This document shows positions 11,623 through 38,919 of a DNA stretch of 41,901 nucleotides, piece by piece. The stretch covers positions 1 through 41,901 of the forward strand of contig JANXAL010000038.1 in assembly GCA_025062325.1 (NCBI GenBank), read 5' to 3'. The position numbers and the translations under genes were made by a program. The DNA is from Roseiflexus sp. (GTDB lineage: Bacteria > Chloroflexota > Chloroflexia > Chloroflexales > Roseiflexaceae). The notes under the pieces are model-generated. The model was given only the letters and a program-made list of their open reading frames with translations. It ran no database searches and had not been told where the DNA came from. The number at the start of each line of letters is the position of its first letter. Position 1 is the stretch's first letter.

Positions 11623-11680
11623 GAGGGCATGGCGCTACTCTGGTTGAAAATCGTTAACGGGAGTGGGGAGGGGGAAGTAA

Positions 11681-12242
11681 CTCACAAGTGTAGAGTTTTT
11701 GGAGCGCGATAGATGTTTGCTGCATCCTGACGCCCTGTTTCCCCTCATCCTCCTTGCCCTCTTCTCCCACAAGGGGAGAAGGGGGCAAGGGGGCGTCCCG
11801 CTGCCTGAAACGGGCGATGCAACACGAGGGGGTGCCGGAAAAATCTACACTTGTGAGGTGGGGAGGGGGGAGTAACTCACGAGTGTAGAGTTTTTGGAGC
11901 GCGATAGATGTTTGCCACATCCTGACGCTCTGTTTCCCCTCATCCTCCTTGCCCTCTTCTCCCACAAGGGGAGAAGGGGGAGTCGGGGCGTCCGGTTGCC
12001 TGAAATCAGCAATGCAACCAGGAGGCTTGCGAAAAAATCTACATCTGTGAGATGGGGAGTGGGGAAGGGTTCTCAAGTGTAGGCTTTTAGGGTGCGAAAT
12101 GAGTTTGCCGCATCCTGACGCCTGTGTTCCTCTCATCCCCCTGCCCCCTTCTCCCACAAGGGGAGAAGGGGGAGTCGGGGCGTCCGGTTGCCGGAAACGA
12201 GCGATGCAATAGAAGGGCGTGCCAAAAAATCTACACCTGTGC
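11681..12242. repeat. Three tandem MITE-like palindromic elements
   Basis: Three head-to-tail copies lie at about 11681-11857, 11876-12051 and 12071-12242 (172-177 bp each, repeating every 192-195 bp). Each starts CTCAC(A/G)AGTGTAGAG-TTTTT and ends GAAAAA-TCTACA(C/T)(T/C)TGTGAG, so the ends are inverted repeats of about 20 bp. The centre is a perfect hairpin, CCCTTCTCCC-ACAA-GGGGAGAAGGG, and the inner arms (GCATCCTGACGCCC and GGGCGTCC) are also partly complementary. No protein is encoded; a 270-codon ORF across the copies is an artefact of repeat periodicity. The design is that of a miniature inverted-repeat element. Confidence 0.85.
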
Positions 12243-12311
12243 GGTGGGGAAGGGGGAGTGGTGTCGGGTATCTCTGAGCTTTTGCGCCTTCGTACCGGGA
12301 ATGGGAGGTGT

Positions 12312-20906: not shown

Positions 20907-21263
20907 ATGTTGGCAAACTACGCATTTATCGGCGTGTTCTTCATTGGCGCGATCATCTTCCCGCTCGTGCCACTGGTGGCCGCATACCTGCTCGGTCCCA
21001 AACGTCCCACGCCGATCAAGCTCGACACGTATGAATGCGGGCTGGAAGCAGTTGGTGATATTCGGGTGCAGTTTAAGATTCAGTACTATTTGTACGCTCT
21101 GGCATTTGTCATCTTTGATATCGAGGTCGTTTTCCTCTATCCATGGGCAGCCGCATATGGGCAAGTAGGACTGTTCGCACTGATCGCAATGGCAATCTTT
21201 CTAGTCATCCTGGTTGGCGGTCTAGTGTACGAATGGAAGAAGGGTGCGCTGGAGTGGGTATAG
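20907..21263 (+). CDS. nuoA: NADH-quinone oxidoreductase subunit A
   Basis: A 118-aa membrane subunit with three hydrophobic helices. The signature loop [20 protein letters not shown] carries the ECG motif of the NuoA/ND3 loop that senses quinone binding. [14 protein letters not shown] is the second conserved block, with the helix-2 acidic residues. It is the first gene of the complex I locus, with AGAAGGAGCGC just upstream of the ATG. Confidence 0.97.
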
Positions 21264-21369
21264 AGGTTGAGAGGCGGGAGGCGAGAGGAGCGAGGCGAGA
21301 CAATACTCGTCGGCAGCCTGGGGGCAAGAGACTCGAGACGAGAAATGAGCGGCGGGAGGGAGATGAGCA
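21264..21369 (+). repeat. Heptamer-rich insert between nuoA and nuoB
   Basis: GAGGCGG GAGGCGA GAGGAGC GAGGCGA and similar 7-mers fill much of the 106-nt gap, as near 12312-12600. nuoA and nuoB genes usually abut, so a repeat expansion here is likely. GGGAGGGAGATGAGC before the nuoB ATG may serve as ribosome site. Confidence 0.55.
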
Positions 21370-22176
21370 ATGTCTGATGACCGCGATATTCAGCTTGAAG
21401 CGGAAAAGCATGGCGTCTTTTTGACGACTATTCAGCGATTTTATAACTGGGGTCGGCGCTCTTCAATCTGGCCCCTGTCGTTTGGTCTTGCATGCTGTGC
21501 CATTGAGATGATGGCGACCGGACTGGCGCGCTTCGACCTGGCGCGCTTCGGCGCCGAGATGTTTCGCGCGTCGCCGCGCCAGGCAGATCTGATGATCGTC
21601 GCGGGGACGGTAACGAAGAAGATGGCGCCGCAGGTGGTGCGCCTCTATAATCAGATGCCCGAACCGCGCTATGTTATTTCAATGGGCGCCTGCGCTACAT
21701 CCGGCGGTCCGTTCCGCGATGGGTATAATGTGCTGCGCGGCATCGATCTCTTGATCCCGGTCGATGTGTACATTCCGGGATGCCCGCCGCGCCCTGAAGC
21801 CCTGCTCCACGCTTTGATGACCCTGCAAAAGCAAATCGACGCGCAACGCATCAATCAGGTGCGCTGGTATGGCAGGCGCGAAGCGAAGGAATATCCGGTG
21901 CCGACGTTCGGGAAGCACGGGCTGGAGATCGATGGCAAACTGGTCGATCCGGTTGGCGGGTTGCCGCTCATCAGTCCGTATACCTCGCCAACCCAGGGCG
22001 AAATGCGCTCCGGTATGATCGAACACCCTGAATTGGTGCGCCAGTTCCCGATCATGGACGACACCGTCGAGCTGGAGTCACCCTATAAAGCGAAAGGCAT
22101 TTCGCCAGAGATTGAACACAACGACCTGAAACGCCCTGCTGTCGAGGTAGACCATGCCAAGGATGAGCAGCGCTGA
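21370..22176 (+). CDS. nuoB: NADH-quinone oxidoreductase subunit B
   Basis: A 268-aa peripheral subunit carrying the terminal N2 [4Fe-4S] cluster next to the quinone site. Ligands are Cys42-Cys43 (GLACCAIEM), Cys108 (GACATSGG) and Cys138 (PGCPPRPE). The core ends at about residue 165. Then comes a C-terminal extension of about 100 residues, partly conserved in style ([12 protein letters not shown], then acidic and Lys-rich), longer than in E. coli NuoB (220 aa). Its last 23 nt overlap the start of nuoC, so the two are translationally coupled. Confidence 0.97.
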
Positions 22177-22723
22177 ACTCAAAGAGCGACTGGCACGCGA
22201 TCTGCCGGGCGTCTTGATGCCGACCCGCACCCGCACGCAGACGGGGAACAGCAACCAGGCGTCGGCTGACGATGGGAAGGCGGCGCGCCATAAGCGGGGA
22301 GAACACGCTCCTGTCGATCTATTAGCCACCGACGATGCCGTGGTGTATCCTGAGCGTCTCCTAGAAGTGGCGCGCTACGTGCGCGACGTCCTCGGCTACG
22401 AGTTGCTCTCGAATATCACGGCGGTCGATTATCTCGCCGATGGCGTCATCGAAATGGTGTACCATTTCTATCATCTCGACGGCGGTCCCGCCCTGGTTAT
22501 TAAGACCCGCGTGCCGCGCGACAATCCGGTCGTGCCATCACTGACCAATGAATGGCCCGGTGCGAATTTCCAGGAGCGTGAGGCTTATGACCTGTTTGGC
22601 GTCGTATTTACCGGTCATCCGAATCTGACCCGCATCTATATGTGGGATGAGTTTGAGGGATGGCCAATGCGCAAAGATTTTCCCAAGCAAGGCGATAAGT
22701 ATTTCGGCGAGAGTGAAGAGTGA
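22154..22723 (+). CDS. nuoC: NADH-quinone oxidoreductase subunit C
   Basis: A 189-aa 30-kDa-type subunit. The C-terminal block [17 protein letters not shown], followed by [20 protein letters not shown], is the family signature. It is separate from NuoD here, unlike the fused NuoCD of E. coli. The first 45 residues are Arg/Thr-rich and look unstructured. The start overlaps nuoB by 23 nt. It belongs to the peripheral Q module. Confidence 0.96.
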
Positions 22724-22743
22724 TAACGTGCGGGATGTGAGCG

Positions 22744-23868
22744 ATGCTTCAAACGCAAGAACTCCAGATCAATATCGGTCCGCAGCACCCGTCGACCCAT
22801 GGCGTCTTCCGGATGATTGTTACCCTTGACGGCGAGACGATCGTCGATCTGAAGCCAGTCTTCGGGTATCTGCACCGCAACCACGAGCAACTGGCGGAGG
22901 TTTCGACCTACATTCAGTCGATGCCGTACACCGACCGCCTTGATTATTTCAACTCGATGGCGAATAACCACGCGCTGGCGCTCGCCGTTGAAAAGCTGGC
23001 TGGCATCAGCGTGCCGCAGCGTGCCGAGTATATTCGTGTGCTGATGGTCGAACTGACCCGCATCCTGAACCATGCCTCAGCCATTGGCTTCCTGCTGAAC
23101 GATATGGGCGCCTGGCAGACGCCGCTCATGTTCGGCATGCGCGAGCGGGAAAAGATCCTCGACCTGTTTGAGATGGCAAGCGGTGCGCGGATGATGTGCA
23201 ACTACTTCCGCTTCGGCGGTGTGTGGCGCGATCTGCCGCCTGAGTTCATCCCGCAACTCAAGGAGCTAATGCAGGGACTGCCTGCCTTCTTCGATGAGTT
23301 TGAGCGCCTACTGAAGGAAAATGAGATCCTGCTGTCGCGCACGGTGAACGTTGGCATTCTGCCGAAGGAAGTCGCTGTCTCATACAGCGTCACCGGTCCG
23401 GTGCTGCGCGCGTCGGGCATTCCGTACGATGTGCGCCGCGCCGAGCCGTACAGCGTGTATGGCGAACTTGACTTCGACATCCCGATCGGGTCAGTCGGGG
23501 ATGTGTATGACCGCTTTCTGATCCGCATTGAGGAGATGCGGCAGAGTTATCGCATTCTGCAGCAGGTGATTGAACGTTTGCCCGACACGACCGGCGGGCA
23601 TATCAACCCGGCTATGGCGAGCATTAGTAAGCAGAAGGCGCTGCGCCCGCCACCTGGTGACGTATATGCGCGCATTGAGTCGCCCAAAGGAGAATTGGGC
23701 TTCTACCTTGTGAGCGATGGCAGTGAGCGACCGTACCGCTACAAGGTGCGTGCGCCGTCGTTCATCAACCTGACGCCGCTCGGCGATATGTGCCGCGGTC
23801 ATAAGGTCGCCGATGTGGTGGTCATCCTCGGCAGCATCGACATTGTGATGGGTGAAGTGGATCGGTGA
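22744..23868 (+). CDS. nuoD: NADH-quinone oxidoreductase subunit D
   Basis: A 374-aa 49-kDa-type subunit forming most of the quinone pocket. Visible blocks are [42 protein letters not shown] (with the conserved Tyr and His region) and a C-terminal DIVMGEVDR. The length is close to the stand-alone NuoD norm (about 380-400). The gene follows nuoC after 20 nt. It is followed by a 327-nt gap, so nuoI begins a second segment of the locus. Confidence 0.97.
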
Positions 23869-23895
23869 CGCATTGAGTGTTGAACGTTTCCGGTA

Positions 23896-23918
23896 GAGAC
23901 GTTGCACCGTAACGTCTC
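23896..23918. repeat. Dispersed hairpin repeat GAGACGTTGC type
   Basis: GAGACGTT-GCACCGT-AACGTCTC forms a perfect 8-bp stem. Relatives sit directly after the second nuoM (33668-33688) and in the 40968-41070 gap (41018-41040, perfect 10-bp stem GCGACGTTGC). Similar hairpins are common intergenic repeats in other phototroph genomes; a transcription or mRNA-end role is possible but unproven. Confidence 0.65.
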
Positions 23919-24060
23919 CAAATGCGTGGCAAACGGCGCAGGAGCGCTCCCCCGTGGGGGTCTGGCAAAGAATGGTGATGCTCCTCTCGGCGCTCTCTGT
24001 GTCTCCGTGGCCCAAGAAACGGCAAACGGGACAAGCATACACGAGGGTTGACAGTATCGT

Positions 24061-24089
24061 CCTTGATTTGAAACTTAACCTGGGATAAT
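24061..24089 (+). promoter_or_regulatory. Internal promoter candidate before nuoI
   Basis: Extended -10 TG-G-GATAAT (24081-24089) with a weak -35 (CCTTGA at 24061, 17 nt spacer). It lies 107 nt before nuoI in a 323-nt gap without a gene, so nuoI onward may be expressed separately. The rest of this gap holds the hairpin repeat and a degraded stretch CTCTCTGTGTCTCCGTGG. Confidence 0.45.
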
Positions 24090-24195
24090 GCAAAATAGTC
24101 CAAACAAACGCAAGAATCGATCGAGATGCACCACGTGCGTGCAGGATGCGACGCTTCGAGCGTAGTGCTGAAAGCAGAGTAAGGGTGCAGCCTTG

Positions 24196-25383
24196 ATGAC
24201 GACTGAGATACAGACCGAAACGACAGAGATCCAAACGACTCGAGGCAAGGTGTATGTTATCGATCGCGGCCGGACCACATTGCGCGCCGGGCAAGGGTTG
24301 TTGACGGGCCTCGAGGTCGTGTTTCGCCATTTCCGCGATGCGCTGACGCGCAAGCTGGAAAGACCGAGCCAGCAGACGGGCGTTTTTACTGTTCAGTACC
24401 CAGAAGAACGTCTGAAGCTGCCAGAGGCGTTTCGCAACTTTCCGATTCTCCTCTATGACGACGAAACCGGGCAGGAGCTGTGCACCTCGTGCTTTCAGTG
24501 TCAGCGCATCTGCCCGCCGCAGGTCATCCATATGACGCAGGCGCGCGATCCGGCAACTGGCAAGCCGGTTCCGGCAGTTGCTGAGTTTCTGATCGAGTAC
24601 GACGCCTGCATGAGTTGCGGTCTGTGCGCGGAAGTCTGCCCATTCGACGCTATTAAGATGGATCACGAGTTTGAGTATTCGACCGACGTGCACGGCGGGT
24701 TGACGCTCAACAAGGAAGCGTTAAACCGCCCAATCTCCTACTACGAAAAGATTGCGCCGACGTTCTGGGCAGAGGTAAAGGACAGCGCGATGAAGAAGCT
24801 GCAGGGCAACATGAAGCGCCGTCCTGACCTGATCGGCGTCGCGCCGCAGATGATCGAAAAGATCAAGGCGAAACGCGCTGAAGCTGCCGCTCAGGCGCCC
24901 GCTCCCGCCCCTGCAGCGCCTGAAGCCGCGCCAGTCGATAAAGCTGCCCGCCTGGCAGCCGCACGCGCCCGGGCTGCCGAAAAGGCCGCCGAAGCGGTTC
25001 CCGAACCGGCAACCGACAGCGCACCGACCGACAAAGCCGCCCGCCTGGCTGCCATTCGCGCCGCCAATGCCGCCAAGAAAGCGGCTGCCGAAGGCGCCGC
25101 GCTAGCCGCCGACGCTGCGCCGCCTGCTAGCGGCATGCCTGCCGACAAAGCCGCCCGCCTGGCTGCCATTCGCGCCGCCAATGCCGCCAAGAAAGCGGCT
25201 GCCGAAGGCGCCGCGCCAGCCGCCGACGCCGCGCCGCCTGTGGTGGAAAGCGCCGCGCCAGCCGCCGACGCCGCGCCGCCCGCCAGCAGCATGCCTGCTG
25301 ACAAAGCCGCCCGCCTGGCTGCCATTCGCGCCGCCAATGCCGCCAAGAAAGCGGCTGCGCAACGCGATGGAAGCGAAGAATAA
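24196..25383 (+). CDS. nuoI: NADH-quinone oxidoreductase subunit I with repetitive tail
   Basis: A 395-aa ferredoxin-like subunit carrying two [4Fe-4S] clusters: CTSCFQCQRICP (from Cys96) and CMSCGLCAEVCP (from Cys138) are the N6a/N6b ligands. The core ends by about residue 220, near the normal NuoI size. A tail of about 165 residues follows, rich in Ala and Pro and built from four copies of DKAARLAA(I/A)RA(A/R)NAA, often continued as KKAAAEGAA. The DNA of the last three copies (from 25030, 25144 and 25300) is nearly identical, so the expansion is recent. Such a tail is unusual for NuoI. I chose ATG 24196; TTG 24193 is the alternative, with AAGGG upstream. Confidence 0.93.
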   Translation: MTTEIQTETTEIQTTRGKVYVIDRGRTTLRAGQGLLTGLEVVFRHFRDALTRKLERPSQQTGVFTVQYPEERLKLPEAFRNFPILLYDDETGQELCTSCFQCQRICPPQVIHMTQARDPATGKPVPAVAEFLIEYDACMSCGLCAEVCPFDAIKMDHEFEYSTDVHGGLTLNKEALNRPISYYEKIAPTFWAEVKDSAMKKLQGNMKRRPDLIGVAPQMIEKIKAKRAEAAAQAPAPAPAAPEAAPVDKAARLAAARARAAEKAAEAVPEPATDSAPTDKAARLAAIRAANAAKKAAAEGAALAADAAPPASGMPADKAARLAAIRAANAAKKAAAEGAAPAADAAPPVVESAAPAADAAPPASSMPADKAARLAAIRAANAAKKAAAQRDGSEE

Positions 25384-25397
25384 TAGGTGAGCACCCT

Positions 25398-26759
25398 ATG
25401 ACAGATATCCTGCGATCATGGATTGGCGGCGCCCTTCCCGACTGGCTGATCGTTTTGATCGCCTATCTGCTGGTGACGCTCATTGTGCTGTTCTACGCCG
25501 TCGGGAATTTCATCATGATGGTTTGGGCGGAACGACGCGTGATTGCGCGCATGCAGGATCGCCTCGGTCCAAACCGGGTCGGGCCAGCCGGGTTGCTGCA
25601 GCCGATCGCCGATGCGGTCAAGATGTTCACCAAAGAGGACATTGTACCGCGCAACGCTGATCGCTGGGTCCATCTGCTGGCGCCGATTGTCGCGCTCGCA
25701 CCGGTGGCGATGATGCTCGCCGTCGTCCCATGGGGGCGCGGTTGGGAACCGATTGATCTGAACGTTGCACTGCTCTACATCGTGGCGGTATCGGCGGTGT
25801 CGGGCGTTGGGTTGATGATGGCGGGTTGGGGGTCGAACAACAAGTTCGCGCTCCTCGGTGCGATGCGCGCAGTTGCGCAACTGGTCTCCTACGAAATCCC
25901 GGCAGTCACTGCGCTGCTGACGGTTGTCGTTCTGGCAGGCGGAATGTCGCTGCTGGATCTGCCCTACATGCAGGCAGGCGTGCCGATCATGGGCGCTACC
26001 ATTCTCTGCGGCGATCCGGCAGGGTGTTCACCGCTGCTGTACAGCACCGTCACGTCGTTTCCTGGTTCGCCGAATGAACCGGTGCAGGCGCTCGACCTAG
26101 GTTTGGGTTGGTGGGTGTTTACGCCGGTCGGGTTTCTTGGCTTCCTCGTCTTCTTCATCGCAGCGCTCGCCGAAGGTGAACGCACCCCGTTCGATATTCC
26201 CGAAGCGGACTCGGAGATTGTCGCAGGTTACATGACCGAGTACAGCGGCATGAAGTTTGCAACGTTCTATATCGCGCAGTACATCCTCAACTTCGCGCTG
26301 TCGGCGCTTGCGGCCACCGCGTTCCTCGGCGGATGGCAGGGACCGGGAGTTGCGGCGCTGGCGAATATGGGCGGTCCATGGGTGCATGTCGCAGCGGCGC
26401 TGTCGGCCTTCTACCTGCTTGCGAAAATCTGGATTCTGTTCTTTGTGATGATCTGGCTGCGCGGCGCCTTTCCACGGCTGCGCGTTGACCAGTTGATGGA
26501 CTTTGCCTGGAAATTGTTGCTGCCGCTCGCGCTGGTCAATATCGTGTCGGCATCGCTTATGGTGGGGCTGACGCAGTGGACGAGCGCGCAGTGGGGCGGA
26601 TTGGTCAACCTGGACGGGTTCGCTCCCTGGCAACGTCAATTGATCGCCGTGCTAGTGACGGCGATTATCAACATTGCCGCCGCTTACTGGATTCTCGCCA
26701 TCAACCAGCGCCCTAGAGAGGCGGAGTGGGACGAAGAGGAACTGGTCATCGCGCCCTGA
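25398..26759 (+). CDS. nuoH: NADH-quinone oxidoreductase subunit H
   Basis: A 453-aa membrane subunit joining the quinone site to the proton-pumping arm. Key blocks are ERRVIARMQDRLGPNRVGP (quinone entrance loop) and the acidic AEGERTPFDIPEADSEIVAGY with YMTEYSGMKF. It is longer than E. coli NuoH (325 aa) because of an insertion (about 200-235, GDPAGCSPLLYST...) and a long C-terminal part, as in Actinobacteria. It follows nuoI after 14 nt. Confidence 0.96.
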   Translation: MTDILRSWIGGALPDWLIVLIAYLLVTLIVLFYAVGNFIMMVWAERRVIARMQDRLGPNRVGPAGLLQPIADAVKMFTKEDIVPRNADRWVHLLAPIVALAPVAMMLAVVPWGRGWEPIDLNVALLYIVAVSAVSGVGLMMAGWGSNNKFALLGAMRAVAQLVSYEIPAVTALLTVVVLAGGMSLLDLPYMQAGVPIMGATILCGDPAGCSPLLYSTVTSFPGSPNEPVQALDLGLGWWVFTPVGFLGFLVFFIAALAEGERTPFDIPEADSEIVAGYMTEYSGMKFATFYIAQYILNFALSALAATAFLGGWQGPGVAALANMGGPWVHVAAALSAFYLLAKIWILFFVMIWLRGAFPRLRVDQLMDFAWKLLLPLALVNIVSASLMVGLTQWTSAQWGGLVNLDGFAPWQRQLIAVLVTAIINIAAAYWILAINQRPREAEWDEEELVIAP

Positions 26760-26798
26760 TATCAATATCAGCATCGGTCGTCATATTTGGTATTTTGT

Positions 26799-27452
26799 AT
26801 GAATACGCTTATTACCGTTCTCTTTCTGATCTTTGCCGCGATCATTCTGGCGTCTGCGATTATGACCGTCACGGTAAAGAATATCGTGCATGCCGCGCTC
26901 TGGCTGATTTCATCATTCTTCGGCGTTGGCGCGCTCTATCTATTGATGGAAGCGGAGTTCCTCGGCGTCGCGCAGGTGCTGATCTACGTCGGAGCAGTGT
27001 CGATTCTGATCCTGTTTGCCATCATGCTGACGCGCGATCTAGAAGGCAGCCAGAACCGCCAACTGACGCCGCGCTGGTGGATTGCGCTGATCGTTCCAGC
27101 AGCGCTCTTCAGTCTCCTGATTGTGCCGACGGTTATGACCCATGCATGGCAACTCCCGCCGCCTCCGCCAGCCGGGCAACCGCCAGCCATCTCTGGTGCG
27201 CAACAGATCGGCGCAGCATTTATGCGCGAATATTTACTGCCATTCGAAGTAGCGGCGATCCTGCTGACAGTTGCGATGATCGGGGCGATCGTTGTCGCCT
27301 TTGAGGAGCGCGAGCGCCGCCGCCGCGTGCTGACGCTGGCAGAACAGGTGCGCCTGCGCCAGCGACAACAGCAGCGGCAGCAGCCCGCACCGCGCCCCGA
27401 ACCGGCGGCGACTGCTGTCCAGCCGTCCGAGGCGACGGGCAGTGAGACGTAA
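26799..27452 (+). CDS. nuoJ: NADH-quinone oxidoreductase subunit J
   Basis: A 217-aa membrane subunit with five helices (MNTLITVLFLIFAAIILASA onwards; EAEFLGVAQVLIYVGAVSIL is the hallmark pi-bulge helix). The C-terminal 50 residues are a Arg/Gln/Pro-rich soluble tail. I chose ATG 26799, which gives the family-typical start; TTG 26787 would add four residues. No clear Shine-Dalgarno is visible, so translation probably depends on nuoH, which ends 39 nt earlier. Confidence 0.92.
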   Translation: MNTLITVLFLIFAAIILASAIMTVTVKNIVHAALWLISSFFGVGALYLLMEAEFLGVAQVLIYVGAVSILILFAIMLTRDLEGSQNRQLTPRWWIALIVPAALFSLLIVPTVMTHAWQLPPPPPAGQPPAISGAQQIGAAFMREYLLPFEVAAILLTVAMIGAIVVAFEERERRRRVLTLAEQVRLRQRQQQRQQPAPRPEPAATAVQPSEATGSET

Positions 27453-27503
27453 TCGTGGCAACATCTGTTCCTTCTCTGCTGTGGTTCTGCATCGAGGCGT
27501 GTT

Positions 27504-27830
27504 ATGCCGTCAATCACTGAGGCGGTTCCGCTTCCCTGGGTGCTCACGCTGGCTGGCGCACTGTTCTGCGTCGGATTGTTCGGCGCTCTCTCGCGGCGTA
27601 ATACAGTCGGCATCCTGCTGGGCATCGAATTAATGCTCAACGCCGTTAATATCAATTTGGTCGCGTTCTGGCGCTACCTGGAGCCGAATGTCGTCGCCGG
27701 GCAGACATTTGCGCTGTTTGTGATTACCGTCGCTGCGGCAGAAGCCGCGGTTGGTCTGGCAATGATCATTGCGATCTACCGGGCGCGCCAGACGGTCAAC
27801 GCCGATGAGGTCGATAGTTTGCGCGGTTAA
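27504..27830 (+). CDS. nuoK: NADH-quinone oxidoreductase subunit K
   Basis: A 108-aa three-helix subunit. [18 protein letters not shown] contains the conserved helix-2 Glu and [15 protein letters not shown] the second Glu, both in the proton path. It is homologous to MrpC. The start ATG is preceded by GAGG. It precedes nuoL by 9 nt. Confidence 0.95.
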
Positions 27831-27839
27831 GGACTGCGT

Positions 27840-30023
27840 ATGGGATGGTTTCTTCAGAATGCCTGGCTCATCCCGCTACTGCCGCTGATCGGGTTCGCGG
27901 TCATTACGCTGACGCCGATTCAGCGCAATAAGAACGCGAGCGCCTGGTTGGCGACGCTATTGATGGTCGCTGCGACAGTCATCGCCCTCGGCACAGCCAT
28001 CGAAGTCGCCAGCGGCGTGAAGATTGCAGCGGACGGCACAGTTGCGGCGCATACGGAAGAAAAGGCGTATGCCGCCGAGCCTGCCGCCGACAAAGGCGCC
28101 GGGCACAAGTTCGAGTGGCACGATCCAAATATCGTGCGCACCATTCGCTGGGCGCCGGCTGGCGGTGATGTTCCCTTCACCATGGGGTACATCATCGACC
28201 CGGCGGTGGCGGCAATGCTGGTGATGGTGACAATCACCGCCACCTGCATTCACCTGTTCTCAGTCGGCTACATGGCGCACGACCCGCGCCAGGCGCGCTT
28301 CTTTTCGTTTATCTCGCTCTTCACCGCTGCCATGCTGGCGATGGTGATGGCGAGCAACCTGCTCCTGTTCTTCATGGCGTGGGAGATTATGGGTCTGTGC
28401 TCGTACCTGCTGATCGGGTTCTGGTACGATAAGAATTACGCCGACCCGAACCAGATTACCCCGCGCCAGGCGGCGATTAAGGCATTCATCACTACGCGCA
28501 TCGGCGATGTGCTCTTCATGATCGGTCTGGCATGGCTGTGGACCGAAGCCGGAACGCTCGAACTCGGCACAGGACCGGGGCAGGTGTTCAACCCCGAGCT
28601 GCTCGAGCGCTTGGCGACGACCACGACCGGCATTGGGATCAGCGCCGCCACCGGCATCGCGCTGCTGATCTTCAGCGGCACAATCGGCAAATCGGCGCAG
28701 TTCCCGCTCCACGTCTGGCTTCCCGATGCGATGGAAGGTCCGACGCCGGTTTCCGCTCTCATCCACGCTGCCACAATGGTCTCAGCGGGGGTGTTCCTGA
28801 CGGCGCGCACCTTCCCGATCTTCCAGGTCAGCGACGCCTTGCCGATCGTTGCAACGATTGGCGCGTTCACGGCGCTCTTTGCTGCGCTGATCGCTGTCGG
28901 ACAGTTTGACATCAAGCGCATTCTGGCGTATTCGACCCTCTCGCAATTGGGGTTCATGGTTGCGGCGCTTGGCATTGGCGGCTGGGTGGCGGCGCTGTTC
29001 CACCTGCTTACCCATGCCTTCTTCAAGGCGCTCCTGTTCCTCGGATCCGGCTCGGTCATTCACGGCATGGAAGCGACCGTCGGGCACGACTCGAATACGG
29101 CGCAGGATATTCGGAATATGGGCGGGTTGCGCCGCTTTATGCCGGTAACGTTCCTGACGTACATGGCCGGCTTCCTGGCGCTCGCCGGGTTCCCTGGTTT
29201 CGCTGGCTTCTGGAGCAAGGACGAAATCCTGGCGGATGCGTTCCGCGCCAACACGCTGGTGTGGGTGACGCTCAGCCTGGCATCGCTGCTGACGGCGTTC
29301 TATATGACGCGCCAGATTATGGTGGTGTTTTTTGGAACCTTCCGCGGGCATCACCCACGGCAGCAGCCGTATGCCTTCATCTCGCACGACAACCATCACC
29401 ACGAAGCGCACGACCCGCACGAAAGCCCCTGGACGATGACTGTGCCGCTGGTTATTCTGGCGCTGTTCGCGGTGTTTGCCGGCGTCGTCAACCTGCCGTT
29501 CGACGGCTTCCACCATCTGGCGGATTTCTTCGGGCAGGAAGCCGGAAAACTGAACCTGCTAGTCATGGGAATCTCCAGTGCGATAGCGATTGGCGGCATC
29601 TTCCTGGGATGGCTGGTGTACCGTAACGCCTTCACAGCGTCCGCTGAGGAAGCCGATCCGCTGGAGCAGATGATGCCCGGCATCTTTACGGTGCTCAACC
29701 GCAAGTTCTACGTCGATGAACTGTACGCCGCAACATTCGGCATCGCTGCTGCAGCGCTGGCGCGTATTTGGACCTGGTTTGACGAACATGTGATTGACCG
29801 CATCGTGATCGAAACGGGACGCTTCACCCAGTTCCTAGGGCAGGTCAATTTCATCATCGACGATGCGATGCTGAACGACGGCGCCGACCTGATGGCGACC
29901 GGCACGCAGGTTGCTGGCGACCGTACCCGCCGCGCGACGACCGGCAAGGTGCAGGACTATGTGGCGCTGGCGTTCGCGGGAGCGGTTGTGCTCGGTGTCC
30001 TGTATCTGTATCTGGTGCGTTGA
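27840..30023 (+). CDS. nuoL: NADH-quinone oxidoreductase subunit L (antiporter-like)
   Basis: A 727-aa distal proton-pump subunit, longer than E. coli NuoL (613 aa). The conserved helix motif FMAWEIMGLCSYLLIGFW (Glu of the channel) and GTIGKSAQFPLHVWLPDAM, followed by EGPTPVSALIHAATMV (Lys and His), are present. Two inserts stand out: an acidic/His loop at about 60-115, and a His/Pro-rich loop (about 500-525, HHPRQQPYAFISHDNHHHEA). The C-terminal part contains the lateral amphipathic helix. It is followed by 412 nt of repeat-rich DNA before nuoM. Confidence 0.96.
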   Translation: MGWFLQNAWLIPLLPLIGFAVITLTPIQRNKNASAWLATLLMVAATVIALGTAIEVASGVKIAADGTVAAHTEEKAYAAEPAADKGAGHKFEWHDPNIVRTIRWAPAGGDVPFTMGYIIDPAVAAMLVMVTITATCIHLFSVGYMAHDPRQARFFSFISLFTAAMLAMVMASNLLLFFMAWEIMGLCSYLLIGFWYDKNYADPNQITPRQAAIKAFITTRIGDVLFMIGLAWLWTEAGTLELGTGPGQVFNPELLERLATTTTGIGISAATGIALLIFSGTIGKSAQFPLHVWLPDAMEGPTPVSALIHAATMVSAGVFLTARTFPIFQVSDALPIVATIGAFTALFAALIAVGQFDIKRILAYSTLSQLGFMVAALGIGGWVAALFHLLTHAFFKALLFLGSGSVIHGMEATVGHDSNTAQDIRNMGGLRRFMPVTFLTYMAGFLALAGFPGFAGFWSKDEILADAFRANTLVWVTLSLASLLTAFYMTRQIMVVFFGTFRGHHPRQQPYAFISHDNHHHEAHDPHESPWTMTVPLVILALFAVFAGVVNLPFDGFHHLADFFGQEAGKLNLLVMGISSAIAIGGIFLGWLVYRNAFTASAEEADPLEQMMPGIFTVLNRKFYVDELYAATFGIAAAALARIWTWFDEHVIDRIVIETGRFTQFLGQVNFIIDDAMLNDGADLMATGTQVAGDRTRRATTGKVQDYVALAFAGAVVLGVLYLYLVR

Positions 30024-30435
30024 ACAGGGAGTGAGGTCTGCCCGCCCCGCCCGGCGACTAGAGTCATGGGCTCTGGTTGCCGAAGCCCGCCTGCGCGGGC
30101 CGGACCGGGCTATAGGTGGTTCGGGGTTGCCTCCGCAACATCGGCGGCAGAATGGCTGCGACAGTTGCCAGCCCACGCCGCCCCGCCGATCCAGGTGATT
30201 TCTCGTGCGGACAGACGCCCGCGTTGAGGAGCGCAGATGGTTGCGGACAAGCGCCCGTCACTCATCACTTATCACTCGTCACTCACGAGCGAGACGCCCG
30301 TGTTCCCAAGAGGAGCGCAGATGGTTACGGACGAGCGCTCGTCACTCATCACTCATCACTCGTCACTCACCAGAGTGACGCCCGCGTTCCTAGAAGAAGC
30401 ATAATGCAGTTACGCGCAGTACATGCGGTGAATCC
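30024..30435 (+). repeat. Tandem 84-bp repeat between nuoL and nuoM
   Basis: Two copies of a unit starting GAGGAGCGCAGATGGTT at about 30226 and 30310, plus a partial copy before them. Each holds CGTCACTCATCAC(T)TATCACTCG and ends near ACGCCCG(T/C)GTTCC. The first part (30024-30225) has GCCCGCCTGCGCGGGC-type palindromes. ATG 30404 opens a frame that is not that of nuoM. I see no gene here. Confidence 0.65.
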
Positions 30436-32136
30436 ATGGCATACCTGGCATACGCATCGACACCCTGGCTCACACTCCTCATCCTGTCGCCGCTGGTCGG
30501 CCTGGCGCTGACCGGTCTGGCGGGTGCGCTGCGACTCGATGATCGGACGGTGAAGATCGGCGCAACCGCGTGGTCGACCATTCCCCTGGCGCTGGCGATT
30601 GTCGTCTGGGCTGGATTCAATCCGAATGCGACCGCCGATGGGCAAGGGGTGGTGCAGTTCGTCGAGAAGGTCCCGTGGGTGCAGGCGATCCGGGTCGATT
30701 ATTTTGTCGGGGTGGACGGCATCAGTATGCCGCTGGTCATTCTCACAGCAGCTATGACGCCGGTGGCAATGCTGGCATCGTTCAACATCACGGAGCGGGT
30801 GAAACTGTACACTGCGCTCATGTTCCTGCTGGAAGCGGCGATGCTGGGGTACTTCCTGGCGCTCAATTTCTTCTTCTTCTTTATTTTCTGGGAGTTCAGC
30901 CTGGTACCGGCGTATTTCCTCATCCAGGGATGGGGACGCCGCCACGCTGCCGACGCCGACCCGGAGCGCCGTCGCCGCGATGCCGCGCTCAAGTTCTTTG
31001 TCTATACGATGGCCGGGTCGATCGGCATGCTGCTGCTCTTCCAGTTCTTCTATGTTGCTACGGCTGCCGCCGGCATCCCAACGTTCGACCTGATCACGCT
31101 GGCGCGCCTTGGCCAGGGGTTGACCGTCGAACGAGCGCCGCTCGATCCGGTGGACCTGACGCTGCGTGAGATTATCTTCAATTATGTCGAGCAACTGGGG
31201 ATTGCCGATGTGCTTGGGCGCTACCCGCTGCTCTACACATCGATTGCGTTCTGGGCAATCTTTATCGCATTTGCGATCAAACTCGGCATCTGGCCCTTCC
31301 ACACCTGGCTGCCCGACGCCTACAGCGAAGCGCCGCCAGCCGCGTCCATCCTGCTGGCGGCAGTAATGTCGAAGATGGGCGCCTACGGCATGCTGCGCCT
31401 GATGCTGCCGCTGGTTCCCGATGCGGCACAGTATTTCGGTCCGGCTATCGGCGCACTGGCGCTGATCGGCGTGGTGGCGGGCGCCTTCGGCGCGCTCGGT
31501 CAGCTCGGCGGCGACCTCAAACGCCTGATCGCCTATACCTCGGTCAACCACATGGGGTACGTCGGGCTGGCGGTTGCCGCAGCCGCAACCGTTGGCGCGG
31601 CGGATGTCGCCGCCCGCGCAACCGCGATCAACGGCGCGCTGTTCCAGATGGTGGCGCATGGTCTTTCGACCGGCGCGCTCTTCCTGCTGGCGGGCATGCT
31701 CGCCGAGCGCACCGGTTCTGATGAGATGGGATCGCTTGCCGGGTTGCGCACTACGATGCCGGTCTTCGCCGGGGCGATGGGGGTGGCGACGTTTGGCAAC
31801 CTGGGATTGCCCGGTCTTGCTGGGTTTGTCGGCGAATTTTTCATCTTCCGCGGCGTGTGGGCGTCGCTGCCGCTCTTCGCGCTTCTGGCAACCATTGGGC
31901 TGATCGTGACGGCGCTGGCTTTGCTGCGGATGTACGGGCAGATCTTCCACGGCAAAACCAACGAACGCAGCGCTATGCCCGACGTGCGCATCGTCGGGCG
32001 CGAATTTCTGGCAGTGGCGCCGCTGTTGATTGCGCTCGTGATCCTGGGCGTGTACCCCGCGCCAATTATGGATCTGTCGAACCAGACGGCGACCGCACTG
32101 GCGGAAGTGTTCACCCGGGTGGCGGGAGGGGCATAA
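30436..32136 (+). CDS. nuoM: NADH-quinone oxidoreductase subunit M, first copy
   Basis: A 566-aa antiporter-like proton-pump subunit. FFFFIFWEFSLVPAYFLIQ carries the conserved channel Glu, IKLGIWPFHTWLPDAYSEAP the Lys region, and GLPGLAGFVGEFFIF the late conserved Glu of NuoM. It has an insertion (about 205-255, ARLGQGLTVERAPLDPVDL) absent from the second copy. The ribosome site is weak (GGTGA, 5 nt before ATG). It is 8 nt from the second nuoM, so the two are cotranscribed and clearly not recent duplicates. Confidence 0.93.
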   Translation: MAYLAYASTPWLTLLILSPLVGLALTGLAGALRLDDRTVKIGATAWSTIPLALAIVVWAGFNPNATADGQGVVQFVEKVPWVQAIRVDYFVGVDGISMPLVILTAAMTPVAMLASFNITERVKLYTALMFLLEAAMLGYFLALNFFFFFIFWEFSLVPAYFLIQGWGRRHAADADPERRRRDAALKFFVYTMAGSIGMLLLFQFFYVATAAAGIPTFDLITLARLGQGLTVERAPLDPVDLTLREIIFNYVEQLGIADVLGRYPLLYTSIAFWAIFIAFAIKLGIWPFHTWLPDAYSEAPPAASILLAAVMSKMGAYGMLRLMLPLVPDAAQYFGPAIGALALIGVVAGAFGALGQLGGDLKRLIAYTSVNHMGYVGLAVAAAATVGAADVAARATAINGALFQMVAHGLSTGALFLLAGMLAERTGSDEMGSLAGLRTTMPVFAGAMGVATFGNLGLPGLAGFVGEFFIFRGVWASLPLFALLATIGLIVTALALLRMYGQIFHGKTNERSAMPDVRIVGREFLAVAPLLIALVILGVYPAPIMDLSNQTATALAEVFTRVAGGA

Positions 32137-32143
32137 GCATCGT

Positions 32144-33667
32144 ATGAACCTGATTGATCTGCCAGCAAACGTTCCGTGGCTCAGCCTGATCTGGCTCAGC
32201 CTGGTAATCCCGACACTTATCATTGCGTTGATGAAGCCGGAGCAGAAGGAGGAGATCCGCATCGTCGGCACGGTCTTCTCATTCATCTCGCTGGCGCTGA
32301 CGCTGCTCGTCTATCTCGCGTATGACTACCGCAGCCCGGAGAAGTTTCAGTTCCTTGAAGAAATTCCCTGGCTGCCAGAACTTGGCATCAACTACATCCT
32401 CGGCGTCGATGGCATCAGCCTGCCAATGCTGCTGCTCAACGGCATTGTGATTTTCACCGGTGCGCTGATCAGTTGGAACATCGAGGACCGGGCGCGCGAG
32501 TACTGGGCGTTGCTGCTGCTGCTGGCCGCTGGCGTGTACGGCGTCTTCGTATCGCTCGATCTCTTCCTGCTCTTCATTTTCTACGAACTGGCGGTGCTGC
32601 CAATGTACCTGCTGATCGGCATCTGGGGGAGCACGCGCAAAGAGTACGGCGCGATGAAACTGACGCTTTACCTGATGGGCGGGTCAGCATTCATTATTCT
32701 TGGAATGGTTGCCATGTACTTCAGCGGCATGCTGCGCACCTTTGATATGCGCCTGCTGGCGCAGTCGGCGCTGTTCAGCCGCGATGTGCAGATTGTCTTC
32801 TTCGTGCCGCTCTTTCTAGGGTTCGGGGTGCTGGCAGGCATGTTCCCGTTCCATACCTGGTCGCCGACTGGTCACGTCGCTGCGCCGACTGCGGTGTCGA
32901 TGCTCCACGCAGGCGTGCTGATGAAACTGGGGGCGTATGGCTGCCTGCGCGTGGCAATGTGGATCTTTCCCGAAGGCGCCAACTACTGGCTGCTGCCGAT
33001 TGCTATTGCTACGTTGATCAACGCCGTGTACGGCGCAACCATCGCCATGATGCAGCGCGACTTCAAATTCATGATCGGCTACTCATCGGTCAGCCATATG
33101 GGATTGACGCTCATGGGGCTGGCAGCGGCGAACACGATTGGTCTGACTGGCGCGGTGCTGCAGATGTTCGCGCACGGCGTGATGACTGCGCTCTTCTTCG
33201 CAGTTGTCGGGCGAATGGTGTATGACCGAACCCACACCCGGCAGTTCCCCGAACTCGGCGGATTGTTCTCGGTGATGCCGTTTGCGGCGATTGTCTTCAT
33301 CATTGCCGGGTTGTCGTCGATGGGTATGCCAGGGTTGGCGGGGTTCTGGGCGGAGTTCAACATCTTCATGGGCATGTGGCAACGATTCCCGCTGATCGCA
33401 GTGCTGGCGGGCGTTTCGATCCCGATCACGGCGGGTTACATTCTGATGGCCGCATACCGGGTGTTCTTCGGCGAAATGAAGAATCCTGAGTTCCGCCATC
33501 TGCCCAAGATCACCGTACAGGAGTATGTCGCCGGGGTCATTCTGGTAGCGGTGCTGATTATCAGCGGCATTTACCCGGCATACCTGACTGAACCGATCGA
33601 GGCGAGCGTGCAACCAATCGCCGAGGCATTGGCACGCGCCGGGACGCTGGGGGTGCGATACCCATAG
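32144..33667 (+). CDS. nuoM: NADH-quinone oxidoreductase subunit M, second copy
   Basis: A 507-aa NuoM, closer to the usual length (about 500). LFIFYELAVLPMYLLIG carries the channel Glu, GMFPFHTWSPTGHVAAPTAV the Lys/His-equivalent helix (note GVLAGMFPFHTW without the usual Lys just before), and GFWAEFNIF the late Glu. It differs much from the first copy, so two distinct NuoM types occupy the locus. Two-NuoM complexes with an added antiporter subunit are known from other bacteria (2M complex I) and proposed to pump more protons. Confidence 0.93.
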   Translation: MNLIDLPANVPWLSLIWLSLVIPTLIIALMKPEQKEEIRIVGTVFSFISLALTLLVYLAYDYRSPEKFQFLEEIPWLPELGINYILGVDGISLPMLLLNGIVIFTGALISWNIEDRAREYWALLLLLAAGVYGVFVSLDLFLLFIFYELAVLPMYLLIGIWGSTRKEYGAMKLTLYLMGGSAFIILGMVAMYFSGMLRTFDMRLLAQSALFSRDVQIVFFVPLFLGFGVLAGMFPFHTWSPTGHVAAPTAVSMLHAGVLMKLGAYGCLRVAMWIFPEGANYWLLPIAIATLINAVYGATIAMMQRDFKFMIGYSSVSHMGLTLMGLAAANTIGLTGAVLQMFAHGVMTALFFAVVGRMVYDRTHTRQFPELGGLFSVMPFAAIVFIIAGLSSMGMPGLAGFWAEFNIFMGMWQRFPLIAVLAGVSIPITAGYILMAAYRVFFGEMKNPEFRHLPKITVQEYVAGVILVAVLIISGIYPAYLTEPIEASVQPIAEALARAGTLGVRYP

Positions 33668-33688
33668 AGACATTGCGTTACAACGTCT
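33668..33688. repeat. Hairpin repeat after second nuoM
   Basis: AGACATTG-CGTTA-CAACGTCT is an imperfect relative of the hairpin at 23896-23918. The rest of the gap to nuoN (33689-33857) is a GC-rich repeat, GGCGCGCCGCCGCGCCC and GGGCACGCCGCCGCGCCCG; no gene is seen. Confidence 0.55.
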
Positions 33689-33857
33689 GTACATCGCAGG
33701 TAGGACAAGATAGAGGCGCGCCGCCGCGCCCCCAGGGAGAAACAGGTAGAAGAAGGTAGGGGCACGCCGCCGCGCCCGCACGGACGACGCCGTGCCCTCC
33801 CCGGCGCACCTGACAGGGTGCAGGTTAGTCATTGCACGTGGGAAGGTCGAAGATCAT

Positions 33858-35480
33858 ATGTCATTCCAGATCACCGATATTCCGCGCATTCTGCCAGAGT
33901 TGATGCTCTTGCTGCTGGGGCTGATGGTGCTCGGCTCCGATGTTCTGACGCGCTGGGGACGCGGACCGCAAGCGCAGCTCGAACGCGCCAGAGAAGCTGG
34001 TCAACTGACCGCTATTGGGTTGGGGCTGATCTTCATCGTTGGACTGGTGCAGAGTCGCTTCCTCTTTACCGTGCCCGATCCAAGCGGTGGACCGCTGGAT
34101 GTGCTGCTGACCCTGGGGCGTAATTTACAGGCGGGAGGACCAGGGGGATCGCCAATCCTGGGCGCGTTTGCGACCGATGAGTTTACAATGGTCGCACGCC
34201 TGACCTTTATTGGCGCAGCGTTCCTGACGACCCTGCTGGCGATGGGGTATCGGTTGACCGCGAACCCCGGCGAGTTCTACGGACTGTTGATCTTTTCGAC
34301 GCTCGGCATGTCGATCATGGCAGCAGCGACGGAGTTCATCCTGGCGTACCTGGCGCTGGAGTTGTCGTCGATTTCGCTCTACGTCCTTGCCGGGTACTTC
34401 CGCGAAAGCGAACGTTCGCCGGAAGCGGGACTGAAATATTTCCTGTTCGGGTCGCTATCATCAGCGATCTTCCTGTATGGCATCAGCCTGGTCTATGGAT
34501 TTGTCGCCAGTGAGAACCAGAAAGCGGGCGGCACACCGATCGTCGCCACACTCTTTTCGGAAGTCGGGCGCTTCGCAACCGGCGATGCCGCCAGCAGCCC
34601 GCTGCTAATCCTCGGCATGCTCTTCGTCATCGCTGGCCTGGGGTATAAGATTTCGGTCGTGCCATTCCACACCTGGGCGCCGGATGTCTATCAGGGCGCA
34701 CCGCCGCCGGTGACTGCCTTCCTCTCGACGGCGTCGAAGGCAGCGGGGTTTCTGCTCCTCTACCGACTGCTGACGACTGCATTTCCCGGGGCGGTTGGAA
34801 CGCCACGTTTGGAAGAGTTCAGCGGCTGGACGAGTGTGCTGGCAATCCTGGCGCTGGTGACGGTGATTGTCGGGAACCTGGCAGCGCTGCCGCAGACCAA
34901 TGCGCGTCGCCTGCTGGCGTACTCCTCAATCGGGCATGCCGGGTTTCTGTTGCTGGCAGCGCTGATCTGGTCGTCGACCTCACCGGCGGATCGCGCGTTT
35001 GGAACTGCTGCATTGATCTACTATCTCATTGTCTACACCCTCACGAACCTGGGCAGCTTCGGCGTGCTCGCCGTGCTGACCAACGCGTTGGGCAGCGACG
35101 ATCTGGGCGCAATGCAGGGGCTGTGGCAGCGCAACATGGTGCTGACGCTGATGATGACGATTCTCATCCTGTCGCTTGCAGGCATTCCACCGCTCGCCGG
35201 GTTCTGGGCGAAGTTCTTTGTGTTCATGGCTGGGTACCAGGCGGGCGCCGTGCCACTGGTGACCATCGCAGTCATTATGACGGTTGTCAGTCTGTACTAT
35301 TATCTGCGGTTTCTCAAAGCTATGTGGATCCTGCCAGCGCCTGAGACTACGCCGTTCAAGACGCCGCCAGTCGCCAATGCGGCAATCATTGTATCAACTG
35401 TGCTGGTTGTGCTGCTCGGTTTACTGCCTAATCTGATCTGGGGAACGATTAGCACTGCGGCAAGTGTTGCAGCGCGGTAG
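33858..35480 (+). CDS. nuoN: NADH-quinone oxidoreductase subunit N
   Basis: A 540-aa antiporter-like subunit, the third pump protein. EFILAYLALELSSISLYVLAG carries the channel Glu, GYKISVVPFHTWAPDVYQGAPPPVTAF the Lys/His block, and LAGIPPLAGFWAKFFVF the late conserved stretch (Lys in place of Glu in NuoN). The ATG at 33858 sits just before the first hydrophobic helix; the longer in-frame start (33792) would add repeat-derived residues. It ends the complex I locus. Confidence 0.95.
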   Translation: MSFQITDIPRILPELMLLLLGLMVLGSDVLTRWGRGPQAQLERAREAGQLTAIGLGLIFIVGLVQSRFLFTVPDPSGGPLDVLLTLGRNLQAGGPGGSPILGAFATDEFTMVARLTFIGAAFLTTLLAMGYRLTANPGEFYGLLIFSTLGMSIMAAATEFILAYLALELSSISLYVLAGYFRESERSPEAGLKYFLFGSLSSAIFLYGISLVYGFVASENQKAGGTPIVATLFSEVGRFATGDAASSPLLILGMLFVIAGLGYKISVVPFHTWAPDVYQGAPPPVTAFLSTASKAAGFLLLYRLLTTAFPGAVGTPRLEEFSGWTSVLAILALVTVIVGNLAALPQTNARRLLAYSSIGHAGFLLLAALIWSSTSPADRAFGTAALIYYLIVYTLTNLGSFGVLAVLTNALGSDDLGAMQGLWQRNMVLTLMMTILILSLAGIPPLAGFWAKFFVFMAGYQAGAVPLVTIAVIMTVVSLYYYLRFLKAMWILPAPETTPFKTPPVANAAIIVSTVLVVLLGLLPNLIWGTISTAASVAAR

Positions 35481-35524: not shown

Positions 35525-36091
35525 ATGAGCGACACAAACATTCAGTCGTCAAACGATGTCACTTCTCCTTTCCGGCATTGGGAAGCATCACATATCACGC
35601 CCGGCGAAACGCTGTTCGAGCGCTTGGTCGATCAGGCGCGCGCTGCTGATCGGGCGCAACACGGGACATCGAACCAGAACGATTTCGAGACGCTGGTGGA
35701 TCGCCTGATTGAGCAGGCGCAGGCGGCTGGCGCGTTCGACAATCTGCCCGGCGCTGGCAAGCCGCTTCGCTACGATGACGACGCGCTCACTCCTGAAGAT
35801 ATGCGCGCCGGATTCCGCATGCTGAAGAATGCGGGCTTCGCACCGCTCTGGATCGAAACGCGCCGCGACATTGACGCCGAGCGTGCTCGCATTTCCGCCT
35901 GGCTTCACGACGCCAACCGACGCTGGCCACGCCTCCCATCCGCCATTCGTGCCCGTTTACGCGCTGAGTATCGGGAGATGCTCACCAACCTGCAACGTCA
36001 GATCCTCTCGTATAACCTTATGTCACCTCCCGCTGCAGGGCAGCTCGAGGGTCTGCGCATCGAGGAGGAGATGCGCAAGCTAGGGGAATAG
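35525..36091 (+). CDS. DUF1992/DnaJC28-like protein
   Basis: A 188-aa protein with the DnaJ-homologue subfamily C member 28 conserved domain (DUF1992). The signature NLPGAGKPLRYDDDALTP, followed by EDMRAGFRMLKNAGFAPLWIETRRDI, is clear, and a long basic C-terminal helix follows. No J domain is present. Proteins of this family are widespread and uncharacterised, possibly co-chaperone-like or vesicle-associated. The gene lies 44 nt after nuoN and could be read from the nuo transcript. GGTATGAGC around the start lacks a strong Shine-Dalgarno. Confidence 0.82.
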   Translation: MSDTNIQSSNDVTSPFRHWEASHITPGETLFERLVDQARAADRAQHGTSNQNDFETLVDRLIEQAQAAGAFDNLPGAGKPLRYDDDALTPEDMRAGFRMLKNAGFAPLWIETRRDIDAERARISAWLHDANRRWPRLPSAIRARLRAEYREMLTNLQRQILSYNLMSPPAAGQLEGLRIEEEMRKLGE

Positions 36092-36105
36092 GAGACCGTC
36101 AACAA

Positions 36106-36135
36106 TTGCGTAACTTCGATGGTGTACAATACTAT
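36106..36135 (+). promoter_or_regulatory. Promoter of the membrane sensor gene
   Basis: TTGCGT (36106-36111), an 18-nt spacer and TACTAT (36130-36135), in an AT-rich stretch inside the first codons of the longest ORF, which is why the start at 36181 is preferred. Overlapping -10-like boxes TACAAT and TATAAC are also present. Confidence 0.5.
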
Positions 36136-36180
36136 AACATAGCGTGGCACCCTGTACCCTATTCGAGACGCGCAAACAGT

Positions 36181-38115: not shown

Positions 38116-38155
38116 CGTTTCGGGGGGAAGGGTTTGTGTAAAGAGACCAAGTATT

Positions 38156-38771
38156 ATGGTCAACCCACCTGCTCTCTCCTATTCCACCGTTTACCACATT
38201 TATACCCGTGGAACCAATAAAACAAATATCTTCAACGAGGAACGAAACTATGATGATTTCTTGACGTTATGCGAGAAATACATTCCTCCAGTAGCGTATA
38301 ATACGCATATTGCCTCTTGAAGAATCATTTCCATCTTCTCATCAAAACCAAATCCAAAAAGAGATTGATACGTGGGCGGCTTCCCAGGATAAAACCAGGG
38401 TCATGCCATCACTTCAGTTCTCCCATTTGCTCAATGGTTATGCCAAAGCGATCAATAAGACATATGGTCGTGTCGGAAGTCTGTTCCAACATCCCTTTGG
38501 ACGTGCGGTCGTGACTGACAAAGGGCATTTCCGCAATACTATGCTCTATATCCATCTGAACCCTCGCAAACATGGGTTTATCGACGACTTTCGCGTCTGG
38601 CCCCGTTCGTTGTATCCGCTGCTCATCTCCGACTCGCCGACATTCCTGGCGCGTCCTCCAGCGCTCGACTGCTTCGGCAGACGCCAGTCCTTCGAGCGGG
38701 CGCACGGTGTGCATGAGCACAACGCTAGCTGGCTGAATGTCGAACTCGAAGAGAACCTTGAGGCAGCGTAA
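38156..38771 (+). pseudogene. Frameshifted Y1 (REP-associated/IS200-like) transposase
   Basis: Three reading frames together give one HUH Y1 transposase. The first 54 codons (from ATG 38156, ...VYHIYTRGTNKTNIF) stop with TGA at 38318. The next piece, CLLKNHFHLLIKTKSKK (from about 38311), holds the HxH metal motif HFHLL. The last piece, FSHLLNGYAKAINKTYGRVG, ends with HLNPRKHGFIDDFRVWP. At least two frameshifts are needed, so it is inactive. HLNP and the RAYT-type layout place it with REP-associated tyrosine transposases. Its first part is clearly more AT-rich than neighbouring genes, consistent with a mobile origin. The likely intact length is about 205 aa. Confidence 0.82.
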
Positions 38772-38919
38772 CGTTGCACTGCTCCTCATCGCTTTCCCCT
38801 ACTCGTGGTACAATATTCGCTACAGTTGACACAAAATACTCGACGGCGCGCTGGCGCCGTTTGAAGGTCGTTCAACATGCCCCTGTTTGTATCCCGGAAG
38901 AGATAGAAAGGTAACTCCC
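38772..38919 (+). promoter_or_regulatory. Intergenic leader of dihydrolipoamide dehydrogenase gene
   Basis: Contains -10-like TACAAT (38811-38816, GTGGTACAATATTC) without a convincing -35, and a TTGACA (38826-38831) without a matching -10 17 nt downstream. A promoter is likely here but cannot be fixed. No gene is seen. Confidence 0.3.

Follow-up and report, generated by a model that had tools for sequence, protein, structure and literature searches.

The closest described counterparts of the system analysed here are the 11-subunit complex I-like enzymes lacking NuoEFG, which share the gene set nuoABCD(I)HJKLMN and use NuoI as the point of electron entry. The excerpted text of the report on them calls their direct electron donor an open question, proposes a docking platform and mentions no repeat tail on NuoI (PMC11238625), whereas in the one order in which we found it by our sampling this subunit bears 1 to 6 copies of a short tag. 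In Chloroflexus aurantiacus, a second complex I cluster (Caur_1976-1987) has a duplicated nuoM and no nuoG, with no biochemistry given; the 2011 genome paper, as excerpted, lists this cluster with nuoDE and a distant nuoF, so that only nuoG is missing, and mentions no tail (PMC3150298). This assignment of nuoDE and nuoF is a caveat to a strictly NuoEFG-less view of the tailed complex I. The distant 'nuoF' (Caur_1185; PMC3150298) may, by analogy, be a hydrogenase gene, since the second NuoF-type domain of the genome studied here adjoins a hydrogenase-like ORF. Tagged NuoIs are present in records named Chloroflexus.

Repeated tails and short docking peptides have precedents elsewhere. Ala/Lys-rich repeated units at the C-terminus of a redox subunit, as in this NuoI, are found in RnfC/RsxC, the tail of E. 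coli RsxC being built of units of the DPRKAAVEAAIARAKARK type. The repeat region of CsoS2 has a Rubisco-binding role. It holds conserved repeated motifs within a disordered protein (PMC11365436, in part); the likeness to NuoI is one of description and the carrier proteins are others. The encapsulation peptides of bacterial microcompartments are described, in the excerpted source, as short helices joined to core proteins through a disordered linker (PMC12339742). The same layout appears here in the predicted helices and low-confidence linkers of an AlphaFold2 model of NuoI and, by sequence, in the N-terminal unit of a ferric-reductase-like protein; again the likeness is descriptive, and the NuoI-type tags differ in being often multi-copy, strongly cationic and carried by membrane proteins. 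Finally, MsrQ-like flavinylation-associated systems have a PF01794-type protein beside apbE, as does, with a PF01794 match below cut-off, the genome studied here, and an NAD-binding domain is reported for 1437 of 1797 clusters in the excerpted text (PMC8238504), whereas the carrier described below bears the tag and, in the one such protein scanned, no NAD-binding domain was found.

The window, a contig of 41,901 nucleotides from a 4.7-Mb Roseiflexus genome, carries a complex I operon in which the NuoI gene sits between nuoD and nuoH:

20907..35480, forward strand: complex I operon with nuoA, B, C, D, I, H, J, K, L and three Proton_antipo_M genes (Pfam matches of the ORFs)
24196-25383, forward strand: NuoI gene, a two-cluster core followed by a long Ala-rich tail
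24196..24852, forward strand: NuoI core with two CxxCxxCxxxCP [4Fe-4S] motifs (Pfam Fer4 families; NuoI/NDUFS8 structures among the matches; Cys motifs)
24853..24936, forward strand: basic stretch, then an Ala/Pro linker, ahead of unit 1 (sequence; genus pN 0.166)
24937..24990, forward strand: unit 1, diverged, DKAARLAAARARAAEKAA (DNA repeat and profile; predicted AlphaFold2 helix 247-263)
24991..25029, forward strand: linker 1, Ala/Pro/Glu rich (genus pN 0.220)
25030..25083, forward strand: unit 2, DKAARLAAIRAANAAKKA (DNA repeat and profile; predicted AlphaFold2 helix 277-302)
25084..25143, forward strand: linker 2 (sequence and DNA repeats)
25144..25197, forward strand: unit 3, core DNA equal to that of unit 2 (DNA repeat and profile; predicted AlphaFold2 helix 314-335)
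25198..25299, forward strand: linker 3, with an internal repeat spaced 42 bp (DNA repeat family D3; genus pN 0.285)
25300..25353, forward strand: unit 4, C-terminal (DNA repeat, profile, pN 0.008 / pS 0.482; predicted AlphaFold2 helix 366-390)
25354..25383, forward strand: short C-terminus past unit 4, and stop codon (sequence)

By gene order, the three Proton_antipo_M genes are taken as two nuoM-like genes and nuoN. An ATG is available as start codon at 24196, which corrects the earlier note made from the sequence of this window. Both cysteine motifs are invariant across the alignments, and the top NCBIfam match is TIGR01971, with 84.4 bits against a curated cut-off of 113.05; judged by these matches, we regard the protein as a diverged NuoI. 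On the window contig, a domain search with the NuoF type as the check for an NADH module found no NuoF-type domain. The same genome encodes a canonical NuoI paralog without the tail, in a cluster that has a NuoF-type gene (contig C106) and, by eye, nuoG. Two NuoF-type domains are present in this genome, one in that canonical cluster and the other on G000:C6, where it adjoins (at about 5000-8900 of locus L302) an ORF resembling, by eye, the large subunit of a NiFe-hydrogenase; this second domain may belong to a hydrogenase diaphorase. Since no more than a single NuoF-type domain occurs in families f2 and f3, we rejected the second NuoF as a universal partner of the tailed complex I. Downstream of nuoN, the window (35525-40335) encodes a DnaJC28-domain protein, a 7TM histidine kinase and a dihydrolipoamide dehydrogenase-like protein. 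Of the six genomes compared, only the congeneric one has this set near nuo, and the dehydrogenase (38887-40335) was rejected as a linked partner on the same count.

The four tail units begin (at the D of DKAARL) at 24937, 25030, 25144 and 25300. The earlier note had placed on this NuoI a repeat tail of four units, three of them nearly identical in DNA and spaced 114 and 156 bp apart. Unit positions and DNA repeats bear out both the tail and the two spacings, to which one of 93 bp between units 1 and 2 is to be added; units 2 to 4 are identical over 48 nt, longer copies of 121 nt are 92% identical and linker copies of 35 nt are 94-97% identical. The count of four needs qualification, as three units are good and unit 1 is degenerate (KAARLAAARARAAEKA; 21 bits against 35-39 bits for the others). 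With a profile built from 20 units, including three window units and the ferric-reductase-like peptide introduced below, E values were 1.5e-10 to 2.3e-9 for units 2 to 4 and 5.9e-5 for unit 1; these values are partly circular because the profile contains three of the window units, a circularity from which the DNA repeats are free. Nothing in Pfam exceeded a cut-off over the tail, no solved relative of the unit was found at E<=10, and an exact-pattern scan of viral contigs for the unit returned 0.

A total of 221 units, comprising 117 distinct 16-mers, yields the consensus KxA[RK]LxA[IM][RK]Ax[NK], anchored on K1 and L5 (R and M were permitted at these anchors and never observed; 1 of 222 matches failed the rule). 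L5, I8, R9 and mostly N12 are conserved across families, and the mean charge of the unit is +4.8. The linkers are 33% Ala and 19% Pro. In an AlphaFold2 model, each of the four units falls on a predicted helix, pLDDT by block reaching 94, while the linkers mostly have pLDDT <50; the model was built from 28 sequences, with a mean pLDDT of 56.7 and a poorly modelled core, and we therefore make no claim on packing. The support that this model gives to helical units on disordered linkers is modest because Ala-rich helices are easily predicted, and a structure search with it, which returned no match at E<=0.001, is uninformative at such low confidence. A single conserved helix face was not significant (p 0.81 at 100 degrees); the best period of conservation was 155-160 degrees, with scan-corrected p 0.22 over 14 positions and 0.73 over 16 positions, so no binding face is indicated. 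The hydrophobic moment of 0.37 was not above that of shuffles (p 0.24).

The units bear the marks of both recent expansion and selection. Identity of unit DNA was 0.783 within a genome, against 0.690 with other genomes of the family and 0.618 with other families, a contrast that upholds the recent expansion proposed earlier and is consistent with units having been repeatedly duplicated or homogenised inside individual genomes. Within the genus the two values lie close together (0.801 within a genome vs 0.769 between genomes). Substitution rates were compared over six genomes of the genus, which give 15 non-independent pairs, with approximate alignments for the linkers. The last unit had pN 0.008 and pS 0.482, the NuoI core 0.021 and 0.434, and the first unit 0.113 and 0.627, whereas the three linkers had pN values of 0.166, 0.220 and 0.285 with pS of 0.43-0.62. 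Unit 4 is thus under the strongest purifying selection among the stretches compared: constraint on the last unit is at least that on the iron-sulphur core, and that on the first unit is far looser. These data support the tail as a conserved, selected element and not the product of drift, and for the last unit a neutral low-complexity tail was rejected. As to random variation of the units among close relatives, named in the earlier note as what would count against a function, their number does vary, loss included, but their sequence does not vary randomly.

Across the order, 64 NuoI frames carried 0 (4 frames), 1 (3), 2 (22), 3 (9), 4 (18), 5 (7) or 6 (1) units, two of the four zero-unit frames being cut by contig ends and one masked. 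Leaving out the masked gene and the six that are cut, and counting in the separately read gene of genome G079, gives 58 complete unmasked genes, and 56 of these carry 1-6 units, the last of which ends <=15 residues from the stop in 53 of the 56. The six genomes of the genus have 3-5 units on NuoI. The two complete genes without units belong to G008 and G079; the tail is therefore dispensable in some lineages. Both genes (loci L016 and L246, respectively) lie in otherwise similar clusters and make ready-made natural controls. Within the order, 67 of 82 genomes had the unit. A wider sample of 400 genomes from the phylum, the one phylum sampled for units, yielded 37 with the unit, every one of them a member of the order. 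Tailed-type NuoI and unit were both found in 64 of the 82 genomes and neither in 14, while 3 had the unit only (the fragmented assemblies G016, G041 and G060) and 1 the NuoI only (G079); this co-occurrence is confounded by shared descent. Outside the class, the best NuoI matches (E<=1e-35) were 42-54% identical, in frames of about 200-290 residues, two being longer.

The unit is also found outside complex I. By way of its tail, the full NuoI query also matched a second protein encoded in the same genome (E 6.5e-4), and at E<=1e-4 the unit profile found in this genome NuoI and that protein only, the next match having E 6.5. The second carrier, whose N-terminus reads MTDEKAARLATIRAANAAKREW, is ferric-reductase/MsrQ-like, albeit below cut-off (PF01794, E 1.2e-4, 22.6 bits against a cut-off of 28; MsrQ NCBIfam, E 9.3e-4, 18.7 bits against 130), and its N-terminus was matched as well by 0 of 5000 shuffled units. 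Its gene is preceded by a PepSY-domain gene and apbE and followed by a haem-binding-domain gene. Within the genus, its unit too is under constraint, with pN 0.049 and pS 0.567, next to 0.033 and 0.453 for the transmembrane core of the same protein. The unit is present in 11 of the 21 orthologues read from 30 loci and absent from the other 10; among further orthologues, three of family f3 have two units each and two more have none. Most of the genomes without units have a homologue of this protein.

A third carrier, with frames of 190-224 residues, has two units at its N-terminus, followed by an Ala/Pro linker and a membrane segment resembling a glycine zipper (PF13441, E 2.7e-5, below the cut-off). 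Of the 82 genomes, 15 encode it at E<=1e-20, and 14 of the 15 belong to families f2 and f3. All ten of the proteins read had two units, as have those at loci L077, L083, L084, L086, L088 and L091; the unit profile contains no glycine-zipper peptide. In three of the four loci displayed (L077, L083 and L084) an upstream gene resembles, by eye, an acyl-CoA dehydrogenase gene, and in two (L083 and L084) a downstream gene looks like that of a mutase. When the matches of 18 genomes were listed to E<=10, all those at E<=0.01 fell in the NuoI, ferric-reductase-like and glycine-zipper families, one of them (G014:C74) being a fragment assigned to its family by resemblance. The unit is thus shared by unrelated proteins and, from these matches, appears to behave as a modular docking tag.

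The reading that we prefer, though tentatively, is that the NuoI tail is a flexible arm with several helical docking tags for a common cytosolic partner, most likely a soluble electron donor. The arm would display several copies of one short tag of about 16 residues, strongly positive and probably alpha-helical, kept apart by the Ala/Pro-rich linkers, and how many of them there are (1-6) may set how avidly the arm binds. Because the tag also occurs on other membrane proteins of the order, it would most likely bind a partner common to them. The positive-inside rule, together with the membrane carriers, suggests the cytosolic side for the tag. We infer that this partner may be a ferredoxin, a flavodoxin or a flavoprotein/oxidoreductase, which the tags would concentrate beside electron entry sites; a soluble donor seems likeliest since the complex I cluster, by the NuoF check, shows no NADH module of its own and the haem-type, MsrQ-like carrier shows no NAD(P)H domain. 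Against the preferred reading stand the glycine-zipper carrier, which has no known redox role, the 12 ferric-reductase-like orthologues that were read and have no tag, the two tail-less NuoIs, the three genomes with a unit but not this NuoI, and the looser first unit. The docking arm suggested in the earlier note fits in so far as the conserved, selected tail belongs to the NuoI whose cluster shows no NuoF gene on its contig, and is missing from the canonical paralog, whereas the RnfC parallel drawn alongside it is compositional only. Bolder, and in our view rather doubtful, is the extension that the unit is an address tag, specific to the order, through which membrane redox enzymes without an NADH module all draw on the same cytosolic electron donor.

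The main rival, since encapsulation peptides share the architecture, is that the helices of the NuoI, ferric-reductase-like and glycine-zipper proteins bind each other and so cluster membrane proteins. Such peptides, short helices on disordered linkers, form trimeric bundles according to the excerpted source (PMC12339742), and the tag sits at either end of different proteins via linkers that are predicted to be disordered or are Ala/Pro-rich. Bundling of like with like would however be unfavourable at about +4.8 net charge per unit unless a counterpart were present, and G008 has a ferric-reductase-like protein with a weak tag but a tail-less NuoI, which leaves this explanation unlikely, if worth considering.

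It is more improbable that the units are amphipathic cationic helices that pin the tail to anionic membrane lipid. Their charge of +4.8 and predicted helix would suit this role, as would the carriers, which lie in the membrane themselves or, like NuoI, form part of a membrane complex; these carriers are however already in or at the membrane, the hydrophobic moment is not above that of shuffles, and lipid binding would not demand L5, I8, R9 and mostly N12 so conserved across families. A slippage-prone low-complexity expansion without function is very improbable for the units: the high-GC Ala-rich code, the copy number of 0-6, the recent duplications, the two natural tail-less genes and the freely drifting first unit would agree with it, but not the pN of 0.008 against a pS of 0.48 in the last unit, nor the same peptide on unrelated proteins while linkers of similar composition drift. 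Slippage may nonetheless explain how long the linkers are and, in part, how many units there are. Least probable of all is kinship between this tail and the RnfC/RsxC repeats, with ferredoxin docked likewise: both are Ala/Lys/Arg-rich short units with spacers at a redox-subunit C-terminus, but the one RnfC tail compared, that of E. coli RsxC, scored no better than its own shuffles by HMM and by ungapped scores (656 of 2000 shuffled tails matched as well), and RnfC_N has no match in the NuoI's own genome; homology to the E. coli RsxC tail was thus rejected, and the resemblance that the earlier note had pointed to is one of Ala/Lys composition, an analogy of kind whose descent is unsupported at the sequence level.

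Helical tags on a disordered arm are a known architecture, whereas the tag itself appears new to the open-access literature searched: no description of it or of the NuoI tail was seen in titles and abstract openings. If the address-tag extension holds, the tag would lead straight to the electron donor of a complex I lacking NuoEFG, and changes in copy number could adjust, over evolution, how well each enzyme competes for it. A conserved peptide on the electron-entry subunit, present also on another membrane protein of a redox family, offers a ready bait for the partner, and the naturally occurring arms, which range from 0 to 6 units, suit tests of the effect of valency.

Repeats also occur elsewhere in the window. 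A tandem array with a period of 195 bp and 3.1 copies lies at 11663-12259, and similar-looking repeated stretches were seen by eye in contig C143 (L245). Short direct repeats occupy the gaps around the nuoM-like genes at 30226-30390 and 33697-33784: two copies of 84 bp containing TCACTCA heptamers, and 1.9 copies of 46 bp.
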